Made by a program: the position numbers and the translations under genes. From Planctomycetaceae bacterium (GTDB lineage: Bacteria; Planctomycetota; Phycisphaerae; Sedimentisphaerales; UBA12454), in contig JAJFVK010000004.1 in the NCBI GenBank assembly GCA_021371795.1, positions 1 through 64,000 on the forward strand: a stretch of 64,000 nt of DNA, given 5' to 3'. Below are positions 1,873 to 54,154 of this stretch, piece by piece (position 1 is the stretch's first letter; every line of letters starts with the position of its first letter). The notes below the pieces were generated by a model. The model worked only from the letters and a program-made list of their open reading frames with translations. It searched no databases and had not been told where the DNA came from.

Positions 1873-3780
1873 ATGCCTCAACAATCCAACAGAGACGTTC
1901 GGATTTCGGATTTCAAGCTTCGGATTTTAATTAGTATCTGTCTTGCCGTCGCGATTTTCGCGGTCTATTGGCAGGTGTACAGTTTTGATTTCATTCGCTT
2001 TGACGACGGCGATTACATTACGCGGAACGTACATATCCGGTCAGGTCTGAACTGGGAGACGATTCGCTGGGCGTTCACGAGCAGCCTCGCGAGCAACTGG
2101 CATCCGCTGACGTGGCTGTCGCACGCGCTCGATTATCAGCTTTTCAAAAATTGGGCGGGCGGCTATCATTTAGTCAACGTCTGGTTTCATTTCGCCAATA
2201 CAATTCTTTTGTTCTATGTTTTGCTGCGGGCGGCGAAAGCGGTTTGGCCGGCGGCATTGGTCGCGGCTCTGTTTGCGCTGCATCCGCTGCACGTTGAATC
2301 TGTCGCGTGGATTTCCGAGCGGAAAGATTTGTTGAGTACGATGTTCTGGCTTTTGACGATGCTGACGTATGTCTGGTATGTCGAGAAGCAAAATGCGGTA
2401 CGGTATTTAATTACGCTGGTGCTTTTTGTGCTGGGGCTGATTTCCAAGCCGATGCTTGTTACGCTGCCGTTTGTTCTGCTGCTGTTTGATTATTGGCCGT
2501 TAGAAAGAAAATTTTCGGTCAGGCTGCTTGCTGAAAAGATTCCTTTTTTTATCTGTGCGTTTGCGGTCTGTGTCGTAACTTACATCGTTCAGAAAAGCGG
2601 CGGTTCGGTTTCGCTGTTTCGGCAATTCAGTTTAAGCATACGCATCAAAAATGTGTTCGTCAGTTATGTCGATTACATCTGGAAAATGTTTTATCCGGAA
2701 AACCTCGCGATTCTTTATCCGCATCCGGGCGATAATATTTCTGCTGCTAAAGCAGTGATATGTGCGATTGTGCTGATTTGCATTACGGCAGCGGTTCTTT
2801 ATTTCGGACGCAAACGGAAATTTCTTATCAGCGGTTGGCTTTGGTATCTCGGCACATTGGTTCCGGTTATCGGTATCGTTCAGGTCGGCGCACAGGCGAT
2901 GGCTGACAGATATACTTATATGACGCTGACGGGGCTGTTTATAATGATAGTCTGGAGCGTGAAAGAATTTGTGCCGGCGAAGAATTATAAACTTGCCGCG
3001 GCGGCTGCGGGTCTGGTTTTGGTTTCTCTTACTGTCGATTCAATAGCCCAGCTGCAATACTGGAAGAACAGTCAGTCGCTGTTTGGGCGGGCAATTGAAG
3101 TTACAAAAAATAATTATATGATGCTCGATAATTACGGAAGTATTCTGGTCGAGCAGGGCAAGGCCAGAGACGCAATTAAATGTTTTAAACAATCGCAGGA
3201 GATTTATCCGGAATCTCCGATGGCGAATAATAATCTCGGCTGTGCACTGCAGGAGATCGGTAATTTTAAAAATGCCGAAACGTATTTCAGGCTTGCAATT
3301 AAAAACGACCCGAATTTCATTCACCCATATATAAATCTCGCGAACAATCTGAAACGGCAGAACAAGCCGGAGGAAATTAATGATGTTTTGACCCAGGCCG
3401 CAAAACTGCCGGAGATGACTTCGGAAACATATACAAGATTCGGGCGAATATTTTTCGATTTGCAAAAATACGAACTGGCGATTGGTGCATTCGACAAGGC
3501 GATAAAACTTGACTCTGAAAATATTGACGCTTACGGGCGGCGGAGTCTGGCATTTAATGCGATTGGAAAAATCGACGAAGCGATAAATGATGTTCGTTTT
3601 GTTTTGAAAGCCAGGCCGAAGGATGTAATGATGTATCGCAATTTGGGAATCTTTCTTGAACGCAAGGGTAATATCGCAGACGCTATTGAGGCATATCGTG
3701 CGGGGCTGCAAGTTGAGCCGAATAATGAGAATTTGCGTCAGCTTCTTGAAGAAGATTTGAAAACGCAAACCGGTCATTAG
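1873..3780 (+). CDS. TMTC-like membrane protein with C-terminal TPRs, paralogue 1
   Basis: A 635-residue protein with about ten predicted membrane segments in the first 400 residues and TPR repeats from about 405 to the end. The membrane half resembles animal TMTC1-4 and other GT-C O-mannosyltransferase-like proteins: an acidic Phe-Asp-Asp motif at 43-45 in the first extracytoplasmic loop, Asn-Trp-His-Pro-Leu-Thr-Trp at 75-81, and His-Pro-Leu-His-Val-Glu-Ser-Val-Ala-Trp followed by Glu-Arg-Lys-Asp. A role transferring sugar from a lipid carrier to exported proteins is inferred from the fold; donor and acceptor are unknown. First of four tandem paralogues. Confidence 0.85.
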   Translation: MPQQSNRDVRISDFKLRILISICLAVAIFAVYWQVYSFDFIRFDDGDYITRNVHIRSGLNWETIRWAFTSSLASNWHPLTWLSHALDYQLFKNWAGGYHLVNVWFHFANTILLFYVLLRAAKAVWPAALVAALFALHPLHVESVAWISERKDLLSTMFWLLTMLTYVWYVEKQNAVRYLITLVLFVLGLISKPMLVTLPFVLLLFDYWPLERKFSVRLLAEKIPFFICAFAVCVVTYIVQKSGGSVSLFRQFSLSIRIKNVFVSYVDYIWKMFYPENLAILYPHPGDNISAAKAVICAIVLICITAAVLYFGRKRKFLISGWLWYLGTLVPVIGIVQVGAQAMADRYTYMTLTGLFIMIVWSVKEFVPAKNYKLAAAAAGLVLVSLTVDSIAQLQYWKNSQSLFGRAIEVTKNNYMMLDNYGSILVEQGKARDAIKCFKQSQEIYPESPMANNNLGCALQEIGNFKNAETYFRLAIKNDPNFIHPYINLANNLKRQNKPEEINDVLTQAAKLPEMTSETYTRFGRIFFDLQKYELAIGAFDKAIKLDSENIDAYGRRSLAFNAIGKIDEAINDVRFVLKARPKDVMMYRNLGIFLERKGNIADAIEAYRAGLQVEPNNENLRQLLEEDLKTQTGH

Positions 3781-3785
3781 AAATT

Positions 3786-5522
3786 ATGAGTTTTAAAATC
3801 AAACAGCAGGAATATTCGAGTAAAAAAACCGCTGTGATAATAAGCGTATGTCTTGCCGCGGCTGTAATCGCTGTTTATGCGCCGGTGTATAAATACGATT
3901 TTACCAGCTTCGACGACAATACTTATGTTGTGCAGAATGTTCACATCCGCGCTGGGCTTATTCAAACCGCACGCTGGGCATTTACCGCAACAACAGCAGC
4001 CAACTGGCATCCGCTGACATGGCTTTCACTTGCGACGGATTATCAGCTTTTCAAAATTCACGCCGGCGGCTTCCATGTTGTCAACGTTCTGTATCATATT
4101 ATAAATACGCTGCTGTTGTTTTATCTTTTTAAATATCTGACGAATACGATTTGGCCCAGTGCGTTTATCGCCGCGGCATTCGCACTGCATCCTTTGCACG
4201 TCGAGTCTGTTGCCTGGGTCGCAGAACGCAAAGATGTTTTGAGCACGATGTTTTGGTTTTTGACGACGCTTGCGTATGTAAGCTATACAAAACAATGTAG
4301 GGGCGAACCGATGTATTCGCCCAATTCAGGGCAGACACACAGGTCTGCCCCTACAAAGTGGTATCTTGCTGCGATAACATTATTTATTCTCGGTTTGATG
4401 TCCAAGCCGATGCTCGTAACGCTGCCGGTGGTTTTGCTGCTGATGGATTACTGGCCGTTGGAAAGAAAAGTTTCGTTTCGATTGTTCATTGAAAAAATTC
4501 CGTTCTTTTTGCTTTCACTTGCTTCCTGCGGCGTAACTTTCATTGTTCAGCGTGACTTTGGTTCAATGTCGTTCGGCGAGACGGTTGGATTAAAAACGAG
4601 AATATGCAATGCGATAGTTTCGTATTCTGTATATTTGTGGAAAACTATTTGGCCGGCAGAACTGGCGATGCTGTACCCTCATCCCGGAGATGAGTTGAGC
4701 AAATATCAAATCGCCTTCAGCGTGCTGCTGCTTGTCGTGATTTTTGTTTGTATTATTTTTCTGCGAAAATATAAATTTTTTACAGTCGGCTGGCTTTGGT
4801 ATTTTGTTACGCTTTTGCCTGTAATTGGTCTTGTGCAGGTTGGCGCACAGGCTTACGCCGACAGGTACACTTATATTCCGCTAATCGGCGTTTTTATGAT
4901 AATGACGTTCAGCAGCGTGCAATATCTTTCAAAGCGGAACTGCGTTTTTCTGTCGATGCTGCTGCTGGCGTGCTGGGCGGTTGTTTCCGGTCGGCAGGTA
5001 CGATACTGGCAAAACGACGAAACGCTGTTTACAAATACTTTGCGGAACACAAAAAATAACGATGTTATTCTCGGCAATTACATAAATTATCTGATTAGTA
5101 AAAACAGAATAGATGAGGCGGTAGCGAAAACGGATGAACTGCTGAAATTTAAACCTGATTCATATCAGGCGCACTGCAATCTCGGCGTAATTCTAATTCA
5201 GAAAAACAAATTCGATGAGGCGGAAAAACACTTTGCGCTGGCTGTAAAATATAATCCCGGCCTTGCGCAGGGATATTTGAATCTCGGCCTTGTCGCAAGT
5301 TACAAGAAAAATACCGACGCGGCTATCAAATATTTCCGGCAGGCGATAGAAACAAAGCCTGATTATATGGATGCTTATATTTGTCTTGCGATAACACTAA
5401 ACAATTTAAATCGGGCCGACGAAGCGGCGGAAATTTGCAGAGTTGGTCTGCGAATCGAGCCGAACAATGAAGTGCTCCAGCGGCAGCTTAAACTTGCATT
5501 AGAAAAAAATGGAACGAAATAA
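3786..5522 (+). CDS. TMTC-like membrane protein with TPRs, paralogue 2, carrying an in-frame repeat insertion
   Basis: A 578-residue paralogue with the same layout: first-loop Phe-Asp-Asp, Asn-Trp-His-Pro-Leu-Thr-Trp, His-Pro-Leu-His-Val-Glu-Ser-Val-Ala-Trp, Ser-Lys-Pro-Met-Leu-Val-Thr-Leu-Pro, then about four TPRs. It begins 5 nt after paralogue 1. Compared with its neighbours it carries about 20 extra residues between the Thr-Lys-Gln and Lys-Trp-Tyr-Leu segments, encoded exactly by the palindromic repeat at 4296-4355. The frame stays open, so the gene is probably still translated. The membrane half is nearly identical in patches to paralogue 3. Confidence 0.85.
   Translation: MSFKIKQQEYSSKKTAVIISVCLAAAVIAVYAPVYKYDFTSFDDNTYVVQNVHIRAGLIQTARWAFTATTAANWHPLTWLSLATDYQLFKIHAGGFHVVNVLYHIINTLLLFYLFKYLTNTIWPSAFIAAAFALHPLHVESVAWVAERKDVLSTMFWFLTTLAYVSYTKQCRGEPMYSPNSGQTHRSAPTKWYLAAITLFILGLMSKPMLVTLPVVLLLMDYWPLERKVSFRLFIEKIPFFLLSLASCGVTFIVQRDFGSMSFGETVGLKTRICNAIVSYSVYLWKTIWPAELAMLYPHPGDELSKYQIAFSVLLLVVIFVCIIFLRKYKFFTVGWLWYFVTLLPVIGLVQVGAQAYADRYTYIPLIGVFMIMTFSSVQYLSKRNCVFLSMLLLACWAVVSGRQVRYWQNDETLFTNTLRNTKNNDVILGNYINYLISKNRIDEAVAKTDELLKFKPDSYQAHCNLGVILIQKNKFDEAEKHFALAVKYNPGLAQGYLNLGLVASYKKNTDAAIKYFRQAIETKPDYMDAYICLAITLNNLNRADEAAEICRVGLRIEPNNEVLQRQLKLALEKNGTK
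4296..4355. repeat. 60-bp palindromic dispersed repeat inserted inside a gene
   Basis: The ends are TGTAGGGG and CCCCTACA. Inside are two hairpins, GGGCGAAC/TTCGCCC-type and GGGCAGAC/GTCTGCCC-type. A second copy of 58 bp lies at 32586-32643 with the same ends and both hairpins. At 60 bp this copy keeps the reading frame of the host gene, and paralogues at the same locus lack it. Confidence 0.9.
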
Positions 5523-7176
5523 AACATCCTTAATAATATGCGTTGCTCTTGTCGCGGCGGTCGTTGCCGTGTATTGGCCGGTGTATAAATTTGAATTTGT
5601 AAGCTACGACGATGAGTCTTATGTAATAAATAACGATAATATAAAAACAGGCTTGAACTTCGACAGCATCCGGTGGGCGTTTACAACCGGTCATGTGGGC
5701 AACTGGCATCCGCTGACGTGGCTTTCACTCGCGTTTGATTATCAGCTTTTCAAAAATCACGCCGGCGGCTTCCACGTAGTTAACGTTTTTTATCATGTTA
5801 TAAATACGCTGCTGTTGTTTTATCTTTTTAAGTATCTGACAAACGCTATTTGGCCAAGTGCGTTTATCGCCGCGGCTTTCGCTGTTCATCCGCTGCACGT
5901 AGAATCTGTTGCCTGGGTTTCAGAACGCAAAGATGTTTTGAGTACGATGTTTTGGTTTTTGACGATGCTTGCGTATGCGAAATTCGTCAAAGACAAAAAT
6001 ATAAAATGGTATTTATCCGCAATCGTGTTATTTGTACTCGGCCTGATGAGTAAGCCGATGCTCGTAACGCTGCCGGTTGTTTTATTATTGCTTGATTACT
6101 GGCCGTTAGAGAGGAAATTTAATAAGCATCTGCTTATCGAAAAAATCCCGTTTTTTGTTCTTTCGTTTTTATCCTGCGTTGTAACTTTTCTCGTTCAGCA
6201 GAACAGTGGCGCGGTTGCGGATATTGAGAAAATCAGTTTAAAACTTCGGTTGTATAATGTTATTGTTTCATACACGGTTTATATTTGGAAAATGATATGG
6301 CCGGCGGAACTGGCGGTTCTTTATCCGTATCCGGCGAGTGGGATTGCGATTACTAAAGTTATCGGCTGCGCGGTACTGCTTGTTCTGATTACAATTCTTG
6401 TGATTCGATTTGGAAAGCGATACAAATTTTTGCCCGTCGGATGGCTGTGGTATGTCGGAACGCTTGTTCCGGTAATTGGGCTTGTGCAGGTCGGCTCACA
6501 GGCTTACGCAGACAGATATACTTACATTCCGCTAATCGGCATTTTTGTAATAATGACGTTCGGCAGCGTACAATATCTTTCAAAACGGAACTGTGTTTTT
6601 CTTTCGATGCTGCTGCTTGTGTGCTGGGCGTTTGCCGCGGGCCGACAGGTACGGTACTGGCAGAACAGTATCACGCTTTACGAAAGGACTTTATCGGTAA
6701 CTAAATATAATTATAATATTCTCGGCAACTATTTAATATGTCTGAATGAAATCGGCGAATTTAATCGTGTGATTGAAATGACTCCGGAATTTTTGGAAGT
6801 GAAACCAGAATCTACCGAAATGCTCAACAATATGGGGATTGCTTTAGCGCAAACCGGCAGGCTGTCGGAAGCGATGGAATATTTTAAAACGGCCTTGAAA
6901 TACAACCCCGCCGATTCACTGGCGAATTTTAATCTCGGCGTGGCGATGCAGAGTCAGAATAAATTGTCCGAATCGGTCGAGTTTTATCGCAAGGCGCTGG
7001 AGAGCAAACCGAAATATATTGCCGCCAGCGTTAATCTTGCAGTTGCGCTGCTGGAACTTGGCGACGCTGAAAAAGCTGCGGATGCTGCGCGCATGGGGCT
7101 GCGATATTATCCGAATGACGGGAATCTGCTCGGTATTATCGATGACGCGATGAATAAAATGAAAGAAAATAAATGA
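5509..7176 (+). CDS. TMTC-like membrane protein with TPRs, paralogue 3
   Basis: A 555-residue paralogue whose ATG lies inside the last codons of paralogue 2 (14-bp overlap), indicating coupled translation. The membrane half keeps Tyr-Asp-Asp in the first loop, Asn-Trp-His-Pro-Leu-Thr-Trp and the His-Pro-Leu-His-Val-Glu block. It shares long near-identical stretches with paralogue 2, for example Leu-Ser-Lys-Arg-Asn-Cys-Val-Phe-Leu-Ser-Met. The C-terminal TPR part differs clearly from paralogue 2, as expected if the repeats select different partners or substrates. Function inferred only from family. Confidence 0.85.
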   Translation: MERNKTSLIICVALVAAVVAVYWPVYKFEFVSYDDESYVINNDNIKTGLNFDSIRWAFTTGHVGNWHPLTWLSLAFDYQLFKNHAGGFHVVNVFYHVINTLLLFYLFKYLTNAIWPSAFIAAAFAVHPLHVESVAWVSERKDVLSTMFWFLTMLAYAKFVKDKNIKWYLSAIVLFVLGLMSKPMLVTLPVVLLLLDYWPLERKFNKHLLIEKIPFFVLSFLSCVVTFLVQQNSGAVADIEKISLKLRLYNVIVSYTVYIWKMIWPAELAVLYPYPASGIAITKVIGCAVLLVLITILVIRFGKRYKFLPVGWLWYVGTLVPVIGLVQVGSQAYADRYTYIPLIGIFVIMTFGSVQYLSKRNCVFLSMLLLVCWAFAAGRQVRYWQNSITLYERTLSVTKYNYNILGNYLICLNEIGEFNRVIEMTPEFLEVKPESTEMLNNMGIALAQTGRLSEAMEYFKTALKYNPADSLANFNLGVAMQSQNKLSESVEFYRKALESKPKYIAASVNLAVALLELGDAEKAADAARMGLRYYPNDGNLLGIIDDAMNKMKENK

Positions 7177-9041
7177 ACAAAAAATTTATTTTAATCAGTA
7201 TTTGCCTTGCCGCTGCGATTGTTGCCGTGTATTGGCCGGTGTATAAATATGATTTTGTAAAATACGACGACGATGCTTATGTAACTGACAATAAAAATAT
7301 TCAGTCCGGTTACACCTGGGAAAATCTGAAGTGGACGTTTACAACCAGACAGGCAAGCAACTGGCATCCTTTGACATGGATGTCTCATACGCTCGATTAC
7401 CGGATTTTTAAGTGGCACGCGGGCGGACATCATATCACTAATGTTTTATTTCATATCGCCAATACGATTCTTCTGTTTTACTTTTTTAAGAAAGTAACGT
7501 CATTGTTGTGGCCGGCGTTTTTTGTCGCTGCGGCTTTTGCACTGCATCCGCTGCACGTCGAATCTGTCGCGTGGATTGCCGAGCGAAAAGATGTGTTGAG
7601 CACGTTCTTTTGGCTGCTGACAATGTTGGCGTATATGAACTACGCGAAGGATCTACAAATTAAGTGGTATTCCACAACGCTGACTTTGTTTGTTCTCGGC
7701 TTGATGTCCAAGCCGATGCTTGTAACGCTGCCGTTTGTTTTATTATTGCTTGATTACTGGCCGCTTGAGAGAAAGTTAAATAAATCTTTAGTTGTTGAGA
7801 AAATTCCATTTTTTATATTCTCGTTTCTGTCCTGCGTTATTACTTATATTTGTCAGCAGAAAGGCGGCGCTGTAACGGGAATCGCGGCCTACGGCTTCAA
7901 GAACAGAGTGGCGAGTATCATTATTTCTTACGCTGAATATCTATGGAAAATGATATGGCCTGCGAAGTTGGCGGTTCTTTATCCTTATCTGGCAGGCAGT
8001 TTTCCGTTGATTAAATTTATAATAAGCGTTTTGGTGCTGCTGCTGATTTGTGTTATTGTGATATGGTTCGGTCGAAGACATAAATTTTTAATATTCGGCT
8101 GGCTTTGGTATCTCGGTACGCTTGTGCCGGTCGTCGGCTTCGTTCAGGTCGGAGCGCACACAATTGCCGACCGATACACTTATGTGCCGCTGACAGGGAT
8201 ATTTCTCATTATCGTTTTCGGCGCAAGGCAGTTATTTCAAAAGCATGTGAAGGTGCTGGCGGTTTTGGGAGTTGCGATTTTGATTGTGTGGGGAGTTGTC
8301 GCCGCCGGTCAGGTGAAATACTGGAAGGACAGTCTGACATTATTCAAGCACACATTGCAGGTAACCAAAAAGAATTATATTATTATGACTAATTACGCGG
8401 CCAGTCTCAATGACGCCGGCCGGTACGAAGACGCAATCACATATTCGCGCGAACTTATCGAAATGCGACCAAACTCGCCGGAAAATCATAACAGCCTCGG
8501 CTGTTCACTGCTAAATGTCGGGAAAAACGATGAGGCAATCGATGAGTTTCGGCTTGCTCTGAAATACAAACCTGATTTTCCACAGGCGTATTATAATCTT
8601 GGAATTGCGGTCAGCGAATTTAATAATTTCGAGAAGGCTGTGATATTTTTTCAGAAGGCGATTGACTGTAAACCGGATTATATCGAGGCGTATGTAAAGC
8701 TGGCGGCAACGCTTAATGATTTGCAGAGATTCGCCGAGACGGTTGAGGCCTGCGATAAAGCGCTGCGAATCGCACCGGAAAATGTGTTCCTGCACGGTTA
8801 TCGCGGAATGGCACTGTCGGGTGTTGGGCGAATTGAAGAAGCGATAGAAGAAATAAAATATGTTGTGAATAAAAGGCCGAACGATGTGCAAATGCGCCGC
8901 AATCTCGGAATTCTGCTTGAGAAAAAAGGATTAAACGCGCAGGCTGCCCAAGAGTATCGCAAGGTACTGCAAAGCGAACCGAATAATACGAATGTTCAAT
9001 GGCTTTTGAATAGATGTTCGAAGGATGCAAATGGAAAATAA
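7173..9041 (+). CDS. TMTC-like membrane protein with TPRs, paralogue 4
   Basis: A 622-residue paralogue overlapping the previous stop by ATGA. It has a first-loop Tyr-Asp-Asp-Asp, Asn-Trp-His-Pro-Leu-Thr-Trp and His-Pro-Leu-His-Val-Glu-Ser-Val-Ala-Trp-Ile-Ala-Glu-Arg-Lys-Asp, then a longer TPR tail (about six repeats from about residue 410). In length and TPR count it is closest to paralogue 1, which suggests an ancestral pair later amplified. The shikimate-kinase-like gene starts within its last codons. Confidence 0.85.
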   Translation: MNKKFILISICLAAAIVAVYWPVYKYDFVKYDDDAYVTDNKNIQSGYTWENLKWTFTTRQASNWHPLTWMSHTLDYRIFKWHAGGHHITNVLFHIANTILLFYFFKKVTSLLWPAFFVAAAFALHPLHVESVAWIAERKDVLSTFFWLLTMLAYMNYAKDLQIKWYSTTLTLFVLGLMSKPMLVTLPFVLLLLDYWPLERKLNKSLVVEKIPFFIFSFLSCVITYICQQKGGAVTGIAAYGFKNRVASIIISYAEYLWKMIWPAKLAVLYPYLAGSFPLIKFIISVLVLLLICVIVIWFGRRHKFLIFGWLWYLGTLVPVVGFVQVGAHTIADRYTYVPLTGIFLIIVFGARQLFQKHVKVLAVLGVAILIVWGVVAAGQVKYWKDSLTLFKHTLQVTKKNYIIMTNYAASLNDAGRYEDAITYSRELIEMRPNSPENHNSLGCSLLNVGKNDEAIDEFRLALKYKPDFPQAYYNLGIAVSEFNNFEKAVIFFQKAIDCKPDYIEAYVKLAATLNDLQRFAETVEACDKALRIAPENVFLHGYRGMALSGVGRIEEAIEEIKYVVNKRPNDVQMRRNLGILLEKKGLNAQAAQEYRKVLQSEPNNTNVQWLLNRCSKDANGK

Positions 9042-29981: not shown

Positions 29982-32564
29982 CTAAATTTTCTCAAACGTA
30001 AAATTATGCGAGTTCGCGTCAACTTTTACGCTGTCGCCCTCGGCAAATTTACCTTCGAGCAGTTGCCCAGCCAGCGTATTTTCCAGCCTTTGCTGAATCG
30101 TTCTCTTCAAAGGCCTTGCGCCGAACGATACATCATATCCTTCATCCATCAGCAGCATTTTAGCCGCGTCAGTAAATTGAATATTAATGTGTCTGTCCGC
30201 AAGACGCTGCGCCAATCGTTTAAGCTGGATATCGATAATGTTTTTCAGATTATCCTTCGACAGTGTATGGAACACGATGCTTTCATCGATTCGATTCAGA
30301 AACTCCGGCTTGAAATATTTTCGCAATACTTCTTTAACGTGCGCCTCAATTTCCCATTCAGCGCCCTGCTCTTCGGTAAGTTTTATAATTTGTTCGCTCG
30401 CGATATTGCTCGTCATAATAATCACAGTATTCTTGAAATCGACAGTCCTGCCCTGACCATCGGTGAGTCTGCCCTCATCAAAAACTTGCAGCATAACATT
30501 GAACACATCCGGATGCGCCTTTTCAATTTCGTCCAGCAGCACAACCGAATACGGTTTTCGCCGAACAGCCTCAGTCAATCGTCCGCCTTCTTCATAGCCG
30601 ACATATCCCGGCGGCGCACCAATCAAACGCGCAACGCTATGCTGCTCCATAAACTCGCTCATATCCACACGAATCATTGCGTTTGGGTCATTGAACAAAA
30701 AGTCCGCAAGCGCCTTCGACAATTCCGTTTTGCCAACACCAGTCGGTCCCAGGAACAGGAACACGCCGATTGGCCTGCCCGCATCGCCGAGTCCCGCGCG
30801 ATTTCTCCGCACTGCATCGGACAATGCGCGAACAGCCTCATCCTGACCAATGACACGTTTATGCAGTTCATCTTCCATGTGCATTAATCGTTCACGCTGG
30901 CCGCCAAGCAGTTTGGAAATTGGTATGCCCGTCCATTTCGAAACAACCTGCGCGATATGCTCTTCGGTAACTTCGTTGCGAATCATTTTCGCTGCGCTGC
31001 TTTGCGCAAGCAGTTCTTCTTTTTGTTTTACCTGTTTTTGCAAATCGGCAATCGTACTGTATTTGAGCCTTGCCGCTTTTTCCAAATCGCCTTTACGCTG
31101 CGCTTCTTCAAATTCGTTATTCGCGCGGTCGATTTTTTCTTTTATCTCCTTAATGGAATTTATATCCGCCTTTTCGCTTTCCCATTTTGCGGTCAATGCT
31201 CTATCCTGACTCTGCAATTCTGCGAGCTGCTTTTCAAGATGTTCCAATCTTTTCTTGCTCGCATGGTCAGTTTCTTTTTTCAGCGCCTCTTTTTCAATCT
31301 GAAGCTGCATCGCTTTTCGGCGAATATCGTCAAGCTCTGCGGGAAGCGAATCATTTTCGATGCGCAGTTTCGATGCCGCCTCGTCAATCAAATCAATCGC
31401 TTTGTCTGGCAGCCATCTGTCGGAAATATATCTGTTTGACAAAGTCGCCGCCGCCACAATCGCAGCATCGGCAATTCGCACGCCGTGATGGGTGTCGTAT
31501 CGATTTTTCAAACCGCGCAAAATCGCGATGGTTTCCTCGACGCTCGGCGGGTCAACCATTACCGGTTGAAATCTTCGTTCCAGTGCCGCGTCTTTTTCGA
31601 TATATTTACGATACTCATTGAGCGTCGTCGCACCGATGCACCGCAGCTCGCCTCGCGCAAGCGAAGGTTTTAGCAAATTGCCCGCGTCAACAGCTCCCTC
31701 GGCTTTGCCTGCGCCGACAATATTGTGCAGTTCATCGATGAACAGAATAATTTCGCCTGCCGATGATATTACTTCTTTTAGAACAGCTTTGAATCTGTCT
31801 TCGAATTCGCCGCGGTATTTCGTACCGGCTATCAGCGCACCCATATCGAGCGCGATAACTTTTTTATTTTTCAAACCTGTCGGCACATCACCCGCGACGA
31901 TTCGCTGCGCAAGCCCTTCGACGATTGCGGTCTTGCCAACACCCGGCTCGCCGATGAGCACAGGATTATTTTTCGTTCGTCTGTTCAGAACCTGCATACA
32001 TCTGCGGATTTCGTCTTCGCGTCCGATTACTGGGTCGAGTTTGCCGGAGCGTGCCTGCTCGATTAAGTCGATGCCGTATTTTTCAAGAGCTTTGTATTTC
32101 GCTTCCGGATTTTCATCGGTAATTTTTCCACTGCCGCGAATTTGTTTCAGCGCTGCTTCGATTTGCGTTTCGGTTATGGAATTGAGCGCGAGAATTTCTT
32201 TTGCGTTGCTCGGCACAGAGGCCAGCGAAAGAAAAAGATGTTCGACGCTCAAGTATTCGTCTTTCATTTTGTCCGCGCGGTTCTGCGCGTCGAGTATTAT
32301 TTGATTCAGAGCAGGGTCTGGCATAATCTGTCCGTTGACGTTTCCTTTCGGCAGACGTTTGAGTTCGTTTTCGGTTATATCTTTTATGCGGTTGACGGTA
32401 GTGCCGATGGTTTTGAGGATAGAGATAGCGACGCCATCGTCATCGCGCAGAATCGCGGCAAGTAAATGCAGCGGAGTTAGCAGAGTGCTTGATTGCTGCA
32501 TTGCGATTTGCTGTGCGGTTGCCAGTGCTTCCTGTGTTTTCAATGTAAATTTATCAAATTTCAT
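29982..32564 (-). CDS. clpB: ATP-dependent disaggregase ClpB
   Basis: 860 residues. An N-terminal Clp repeat domain is followed by AAA1 with Gly-Glu-Pro-Gly-Val-Gly-Lys-Thr, a coiled-coil middle domain (about 410-520), and AAA2 with Gly-Pro-Thr-Gly-Val-Gly-Lys-Thr and the [10 protein letters not shown] loop. Works with DnaK to rescue aggregates. ATG 32564 has AAGGTGG upstream. A 58-bp dispersed repeat begins 22 bp upstream of the start, in the presumed promoter region; no heat-shock inverted repeat (CIRCE) is visible. Confidence 0.95.
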
Positions 32565-32928
32565 AAAAACCACCTTTCACATCGTTGTAGGGGCGAACCG
32601 AGGTGTTCGCCCAACTTGGCAGACACGCAGGTCTGCCCCTACATTAAATAGCAAAGACTGTGCCTAAACTTGCAGAATTGTAAGTCAGTATAAAACAGGC
32701 AGTTATAATTGCAAAGAAGAATTTGAAAATGCCATTTTGGCATATACAAATCTGGTTAGCCCTGCCGTCACTACGGCAGGGTTTTCTCTTGAATCACTCC
32801 GTGTCATTCTCGCGAAAGGCGGTTGGAGCATTGGCGGAAACCACTGTGGGGGAATCCAGCCGTTTAGCTGCCGCCAACACGGCGATGTCATTGCGAGGAG
32901 TCCCTTTTTTGAAGACGACGAAGCAATC
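32565..32928. other. Repeat-filled gap between clpB and the FRG gene
   Basis: Four dispersed elements lie in 364 bp: the TGTAGGGG...CCCCTACA repeat (32586-32643), a CCCTGCCGT/ACGGCAGGG hairpin with T-rich tail (32760-32790), a GTCATTCTCGCG...GGAATCC element (32802-32856), and a TGTCATTGCGAGGAG...GACGAAGCAATCTC element (32886-32931) that runs into the FRG stop codon. No gene seen. Confidence 0.75.
32586..32643. repeat. 58-bp palindromic dispersed repeat, second copy
   Basis: Ends TGTAGGGG and CCCCTACA with the same two internal hairpins as 4296-4355; it differs by a 2-bp deletion near the centre and a few substitutions. Intergenic here, just upstream of clpB. Confidence 0.92.
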
Positions 32929-53546: not shown

Positions 53547-54154
53547 TGGCAGCAAATTCAATGACAGCTAAACAGGCCGTTGTCGGCGGATTGTGGACGG
53601 AAGTTCCGGTTCTGCGTCTGGTGCTCGGTATGTGTCCGACGCTGGCGGTAACAGCATCAGTTAAACCGGCCTTGACAATGGGATTGAGCGTTTTGTTCGT
53701 GCTCTTTTGCAGTAATATCGTTGTCAGTCTTATGCGGAATCTTCTCAAACCGCATCTGCGGATTTTGATGTTCACATTGACCATCGCGACATTTGTTACT
53801 ATCGCGGATTTATTTTTGAAGGCGTTTATGCCGGAGATGAGTGAAGTGCTCGGCCCGTATGTCGGCCTGATTATCGTAAACTGCATTATCATCGCCCGCG
53901 CAGAAGCGTGTGCAAGCAAAAACGGAATATTCATAAGCGCTGTTGACGCGATAAGTATGGGCGTTGGCTTTACGATTGTTCTGTGTCTGCTGGCTTCTGT
54001 CAGAGAGCTGATTTCGGCAGGAACGATTTTCGGCGTTCAGATTATGTGGAAAAGTTTTGTTCCCTGGGTCGCGATGTCGCTGCCGGTCGGTGCGTTTATC
54101 ACACTCGGTCTGATGCTGGGTCTTGTTAATTTATTAACCGGTAAAAAATCCTAA
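53546..54154 (+). CDS. rnfE: Rnf complex subunit RnfE
   Basis: 202 residues, six membrane helices. The motif Gly-Met-Cys-Pro-Thr-Leu-Ala-Val-Thr at about 29-37 holds the cysteine that shares the intramembrane 2Fe-2S cluster with RnfA. Cys in Val-Asn-Cys-Ile-Ile is the second ligand. Start overlaps rnfG stop by one base. Confidence 0.94.
   Translation: MAANSMTAKQAVVGGLWTEVPVLRLVLGMCPTLAVTASVKPALTMGLSVLFVLFCSNIVVSLMRNLLKPHLRILMFTLTIATFVTIADLFLKAFMPEMSEVLGPYVGLIIVNCIIIARAEACASKNGIFISAVDAISMGVGFTIVLCLLASVRELISAGTIFGVQIMWKSFVPWVAMSLPVGAFITLGLMLGLVNLLTGKKS

Follow-up and report, generated by a model that had tools for sequence, protein, structure and literature searches.

We consider it highly probable that a mobile palindrome, an inverted doublet of GTAG-type REPs (REPIN) that would have been moved by a REP-associated tyrosine transposase (RAYT), was inserted in frame into a loop of one TMTC-like membrane protein of a planctomycete, that the residues it encodes are tolerated, and that its retention reflects survival. 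The element occupies positions 4296-4355 of the window, by which we mean the whole 64,000-nucleotide stretch analysed (positions 1 to 64,000 of contig JAJFVK010000004.1). Its 60 bp, TGTAGGGGCGAACCGATGTATTCGCCCAATTCAGGGCAGACACACAGGTCTGCCCCTACA, lie in frame within the plus-strand ORF at 3786-5522, which TPR matches and a helix model mark as a TMTC-like multi-helix membrane protein with C-terminal TPRs, and they encode the peptide CRGEPMYSPNSGQTHRSAPT, residues 171-190 of the host protein. This gene is the second in an array of four plus-strand paralogues, overlapping or almost adjoining by their ORF coordinates, the others lying at 1873-3780, 5509-7176 and 7173-9041. In paralogue 2 the loop reads KQ, then the 20 residues, then KWYL; it is short in homologues, as in KDKNIKWYL (paralogue 3), KDLQIKWYS (paralogue 4) and KNPKIKWYL in the closest orthologue (genome G004), which at 60% protein identity offers no exact pre-insertion site for comparison. 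Because the insert is absent from paralogues 1, 3 and 4, from the G004 orthologue and from every other homologue whose loop was compared, we regard it as an insertion and not as an old feature of the protein.

A preliminary description of this DNA had placed an in-frame 60-bp palindrome here and had found paralogues 1, 3 and 4 to lack it; the sequence, the ORF, the fold and the empty loops bear this out. It had also counted 20 added codons between two membrane helices. Twenty residues do occupy the predicted loop, between helices modelled by AlphaFold at 145-171 and 190-204, but the net gain over the empty loops is 17 codons, about three native codons being missing. Distant orthologues with the same 20 residues, which that description had named as the sign of an old protein feature, were looked for, and none was found among the TMTC homologues compared. 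With pLDDT below 50 at residues 176-179 and 181-187, the insert is predicted to form a disordered, flexible loop. The same loop in two TMTC paralogues of a congener (G005) holds a different dispersed palindrome, GTCATTGCGAGG...GAAGCAATC, and the loop is therefore permissive. These two adjacent G005 genes (L024) share the palindrome and similar flanks, with 45 of 51 bases alike over the upstream flank and the start of the palindrome, and are more diverged overall; gene conversion is possible there, to judge from the aligned sequences.

By its sequence features, the element is a GTAG-type REP doublet, or REPIN, of a family of about 58 bp. The first REP (4297-4322, plus strand) consists of a GTAG foot and a GGGCGAA...TTCGCCC stem-loop, and folds in isolation at -10.3 kcal/mol; the second (4329-4354, minus strand) is its inverted counterpart, with a GTAG foot and a GGGCAGAC...GTCTGCCC stem-loop that folds at -14.8 kcal/mol. 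Between them lies the spacer AATTCA (4323-4328), the part whose length varies most in the alignment of copies. As RNA the whole element folds at -34 kcal/mol, whereas shuffled sequences give -14.7 +/- 2.8 (z = -7). Each half thus has the GTAG end, 7-8 bp stem and loop of the GTAG REP superfamily, and the whole has what defines a REPIN: an inverted pair of REPs separated by a short variable spacer, the ability to form a hairpin, and dispersal, here in 12 copies. An Rfam search of the window gave no match, and no relevant paper turned up for the literal motif GTAGGGGC.

Copies were counted with pattern and covariance-model searches, the latter scoring 150 candidates in each genome. Matches to the end-to-end pattern number 12 in the 2.85-Mb genome (G000), against 0 for a reversed control. 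Two genus-mates, G001 and G005, carry about 9-10 copies each, and the other four have none or a single weak match; genome by genome, G007 of the same family has one copy, G004 one weak match, and the other eight genomes searched none. Among the matches listed (L117-L235), REPINs that are near-identical and have the same 13-base ends come from many phyla, including Chloroflexota, Desulfobacterota, Nitrospirota, Bacteroidota, Omnitrophota and Armatimonadota, and isolate genomes of Dysgonomonas are among their carriers. The second copy in the window (32586-32643, plus strand, 58 bp) is real, as the preliminary description had it; that it would break a frame is moot, since it is intergenic, some 22 bp upstream of clpB, which starts near 32564 on the minus strand. 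Less than 250 bp from this copy, at 32887-32928, lies the palindrome GTCATTGCGAGG...GAAGCAATC, which has five full copies in the genome. Three intergenic REPINs (L004, L005, L008) are flanked by arms resembling TTTAGCCGTA / TACGGCTAAA, and from their sequence look as if nested in another palindrome.

The TMTC gene is one of several hosts. In G000 and G001 a 57-bp REPIN lies in frame at the same site of MnmE, ahead of the TKCD motif, where it takes the position of 4-5 codons in empty homologues; because each genome has one near-full-length MnmE match, the gene with the insert appears to be the sole copy. The G001 MnmE (L080) has, besides, an extra stretch close to its N-terminus, NAAHCEKKGTDTAYGGQTPRF..., that is absent from the other members of the genus. 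A PabB-like gene of G000 carries a 57-bp copy in frame, PriA of G001 a 60-bp one, and a PfkB-like kinase of G001 and G005 a 59-bp one, at the same site and in frame by way of a flanking change; PfkB of G000 has a short native stretch at this site, and that of G004 (L098) has there, in frame, a different GTAG palindrome, GTAGGGTGGGCTTCAGCCCACGC. In other phyla, Pfam matches support in-frame copies in a P-type ATPase, Mfd, HsdS, an M15 peptidase, GpmI, KsgA, TruB, UvrA, a radical-SAM protein and a heptosyltransferase/HAD fusion; seven ORFs across copies that had no Pfam match were excluded as probably not genes. A second dispersed palindrome of G000, GTCATTCCCGCGNNNGCGGGAATCC, is found at 22 sites with at most three mismatches, some in frame in genes: in PabB, where it is a second insert, in a radical-SAM/TRAM protein and in an FAD-oxidase/CCG protein (C6:117621, L241; C8:82321, L243; C2:21110, L248).

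The length of the TMTC copy had been taken as apparently tuned to three, a view we reject in favour of survivorship. Copies range from 54 to 73 bp with all three phases represented. The frame is kept by the 59-bp PfkB copies and by three Uhrbacteria copies of 67-68 bp in which the outermost base pair is disrupted; it follows from these that only the net change need keep the frame. Multiples of three are indeed enriched within genes, as a comparison of genic with other copies shows: 15 of 19 verified in-frame copies against 39 of 109 others, across phyla and among the matches listed (Fisher p = 0.0007), and 4/4 intragenic against 2/8 other copies in G000 alone (p = 0.06), both p-values being indicative because the list of intragenic copies was drawn up manually once the copies had been viewed. 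The enrichment arises because other lengths would have broken the gene. Being in frame with a length divisible by three is hence no evidence of domestication.

We propose that a GTAG-type REPIN entered the short inter-helix loop of one TMTC paralogue in frame, replacing about 9 bp, although a later loss, or a loop that was short beforehand, could also account for the apparent replacement. The REPIN would have been moved as single-stranded DNA by a REP-associated tyrosine transposase (RAYT/TnpA-REP), and genic copies would be kept only at surface loops and with a net change that preserves the frame, so that genic retention would be selection by survival rather than a matter of tuned length. A candidate for the cognate mover, suggested by sequence context, is a RAYT-like gene on contig C20, where REPIN copies lie at 53596, 53923 and 54350, two flanking the gene and one inside it. 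The internal copy, of 66 bp, keeps the frame and separates the HUH block from the C-terminal (Y) block, and the protein reads MPNHFHG...[REPIN]...LWQRNYYEH. Its best NCBIfam match is to NF047646 (REP_Tyr_transpos) at 55 bits, below the curated cut-off of 80, probably because the embedded REPIN splits the match. RAYT homologues are present in G001 and G005, and also in genus-mates that do not have this REPIN. A GTAG hairpin lies between HUH and Y in 12 of 25 related planctomycete RAYTs, and in-frame REPINs inside a RAYT occur as well in a Zixibacteria, a Phycisphaerae and the isolate Dysgonomonas sp. 25.

The sites shared between species hold an odd detail, in that between-species divergence is lower in the inserted DNA than in its host genes, an unexplained and testable anomaly. 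Between G000 and G001 the MnmE insert is identical at 54 of 57 positions, against 75.1% of aligned DNA for the host gene, and at 19/19 third codon positions, against 54.7%; between G001 and G005 the PfkB insert is identical at 55 of 59, against 71.1% for the gene and 53.1% for its third positions. Under the host rates, with sites treated as independent, such identities have a probability of about 1e-4 (MnmE) and 3e-5 (PfkB). All three MnmE differences alter the amino acid and none is synonymous, so selection on the peptide, as far as these codons tell, does not fit the MnmE pair. The high identity points, on sequence comparison, to recent insertion or to renewal in place; both repeated insertion into one loop and the overwriting of an old insert from a mobile pool would fit, and the two shared-site pairs are too few to decide between these readings. 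Nearest-neighbour distances were tried as a test of shared ancestry against re-insertion and gave no discrimination, the orthologous inserts being no closer to each other than to several non-orthologous copies. Sites common to two species account for 4/8 intragenic copies and 0/19 intergenic ones. We raise, as a tentative idea that is rather less than even in likelihood, that REPINs in core genes are renewed in place, a case of concerted evolution in which the mobile element lies within coding sequence: an ancestral in-frame insertion would be followed by repeated overwriting or re-insertion from the mobile pool, which would keep the insert DNA from departing from the family consensus as the host gene diverges. 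Shared-site pairs make it possible to test directly what intragenic REPINs are: relics that persist passively, insertions at a hot spot, or copies that conversion keeps fresh.

Other interpretations of the TMTC insert can be weighed against a tolerated REPIN insertion. The preliminary description saw a dispersed repeat being turned into protein, which stands insofar as copies are found genome-wide and the orthologue and paralogues are empty, but is not supported in the sense of domestication. That the 20 residues acquired a protein function and are retained for it seems to us very unlikely: the MnmE insert is kept at the same site in two species, but its all-nonsynonymous differences and unchanged third positions are the reverse of protein-level constraint, the same peptide is found in unrelated proteins, and the TMTC insert is predicted to be disordered. 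Most likely the 20 residues are tolerated rather than useful. An ancient protein feature that merely resembles a repeat has nothing in its favour except being in frame; the homologues without the insert led us to reject it, and with DNA that matches dispersed copies from end to end, we give it next to no credence.

REPs affect mRNA stability in other bacteria, and the hairpin could instead work in the mRNA, for example on translation or decay within the four-gene TMTC array. The very stable fold and the overlapping or almost adjoining genes speak for such a role, which we nevertheless hold to be improbable given the lack of an Rfam match in the window and the presence of inserts in unrelated genes in either orientation. 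An assembly or binning artefact would be conceivable in genomes that are mostly metagenome-assembled, yet it is scarcely credible when many loci are affected, the MnmE insertion is repeated in an independent assembly (GWF2_42_9), and the isolate genome of Dysgonomonas sp. 25 has an in-frame RAYT copy.

A tolerated, RAYT-moved REPIN has close counterparts in known systems. The REPINs of Bertels and Rainey (2011; PMC3116915), moved by RAYTs, likewise consist of two REPs, inverted, with a short variable spacer between them, form hairpins and lie near a RAYT gene; those of Pseudomonas are described as extragenic, whereas the present family is low in copy number (12) and one third intragenic. Quentin et al. 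(2018; PMC6006769) describe a TnpA-REP subclass 2.4 (RAYT group 4) with a REP inside the transposase gene, and having already reported such cases they deprive the REPIN within its own RAYT gene of novelty. As in that subclass, the C20 gene has an in-frame REP between HUH and Y with GTAG at both ends (the "double foot") and a phylum-scattered distribution; its protein shows the NH[IFV]H and WQ motifs and is one residue off YIxNNP (YILKNPSNW; relatives L229 and L234 have YIVENP and YINNNP), a putative assignment by motifs and arrangement and not by tree. In its main text, Di Nocera et al. (2013; PMC3733652) place GTAG-tagged inverted REP doublets inside genes, including those for DNA repair and tRNA-modifying enzymes, with REP dimers or groups encoding 20-30 residues and a neutral-loop explanation proposed. 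The present elements are likewise inverted doublets in frame, encoding about 19-20 residues; the consensus GTAGGGGCGAACC...GGTCTGCCCCTAC and the planctomycete genus are not found in that main text, and relative to it the empty-site and between-species comparisons are made here. The Rickettsia palindromic elements (RPEs), summarised in PMC3767692 as 100-150 bp, are also dispersed palindromes in frame in unrelated genes, with sites common to species and different families at or near one site. Their sequence differs, the cited literature names no transposase for them, and the CGTC end that the main text of PMC3733652 reports for the RPEs of R. conorii is GTAG here, so that our REPIN works like an RPE without belonging to that group. 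The main text of PMC3733652 and, for Rickettsia, PMC3767692 have thus already described in-frame REPs, sites common to species and the presence of different palindromes at a single site, and to these systems the present family adds a clean case of a mobile palindrome lengthening proteins, the single-copy MnmE among them.
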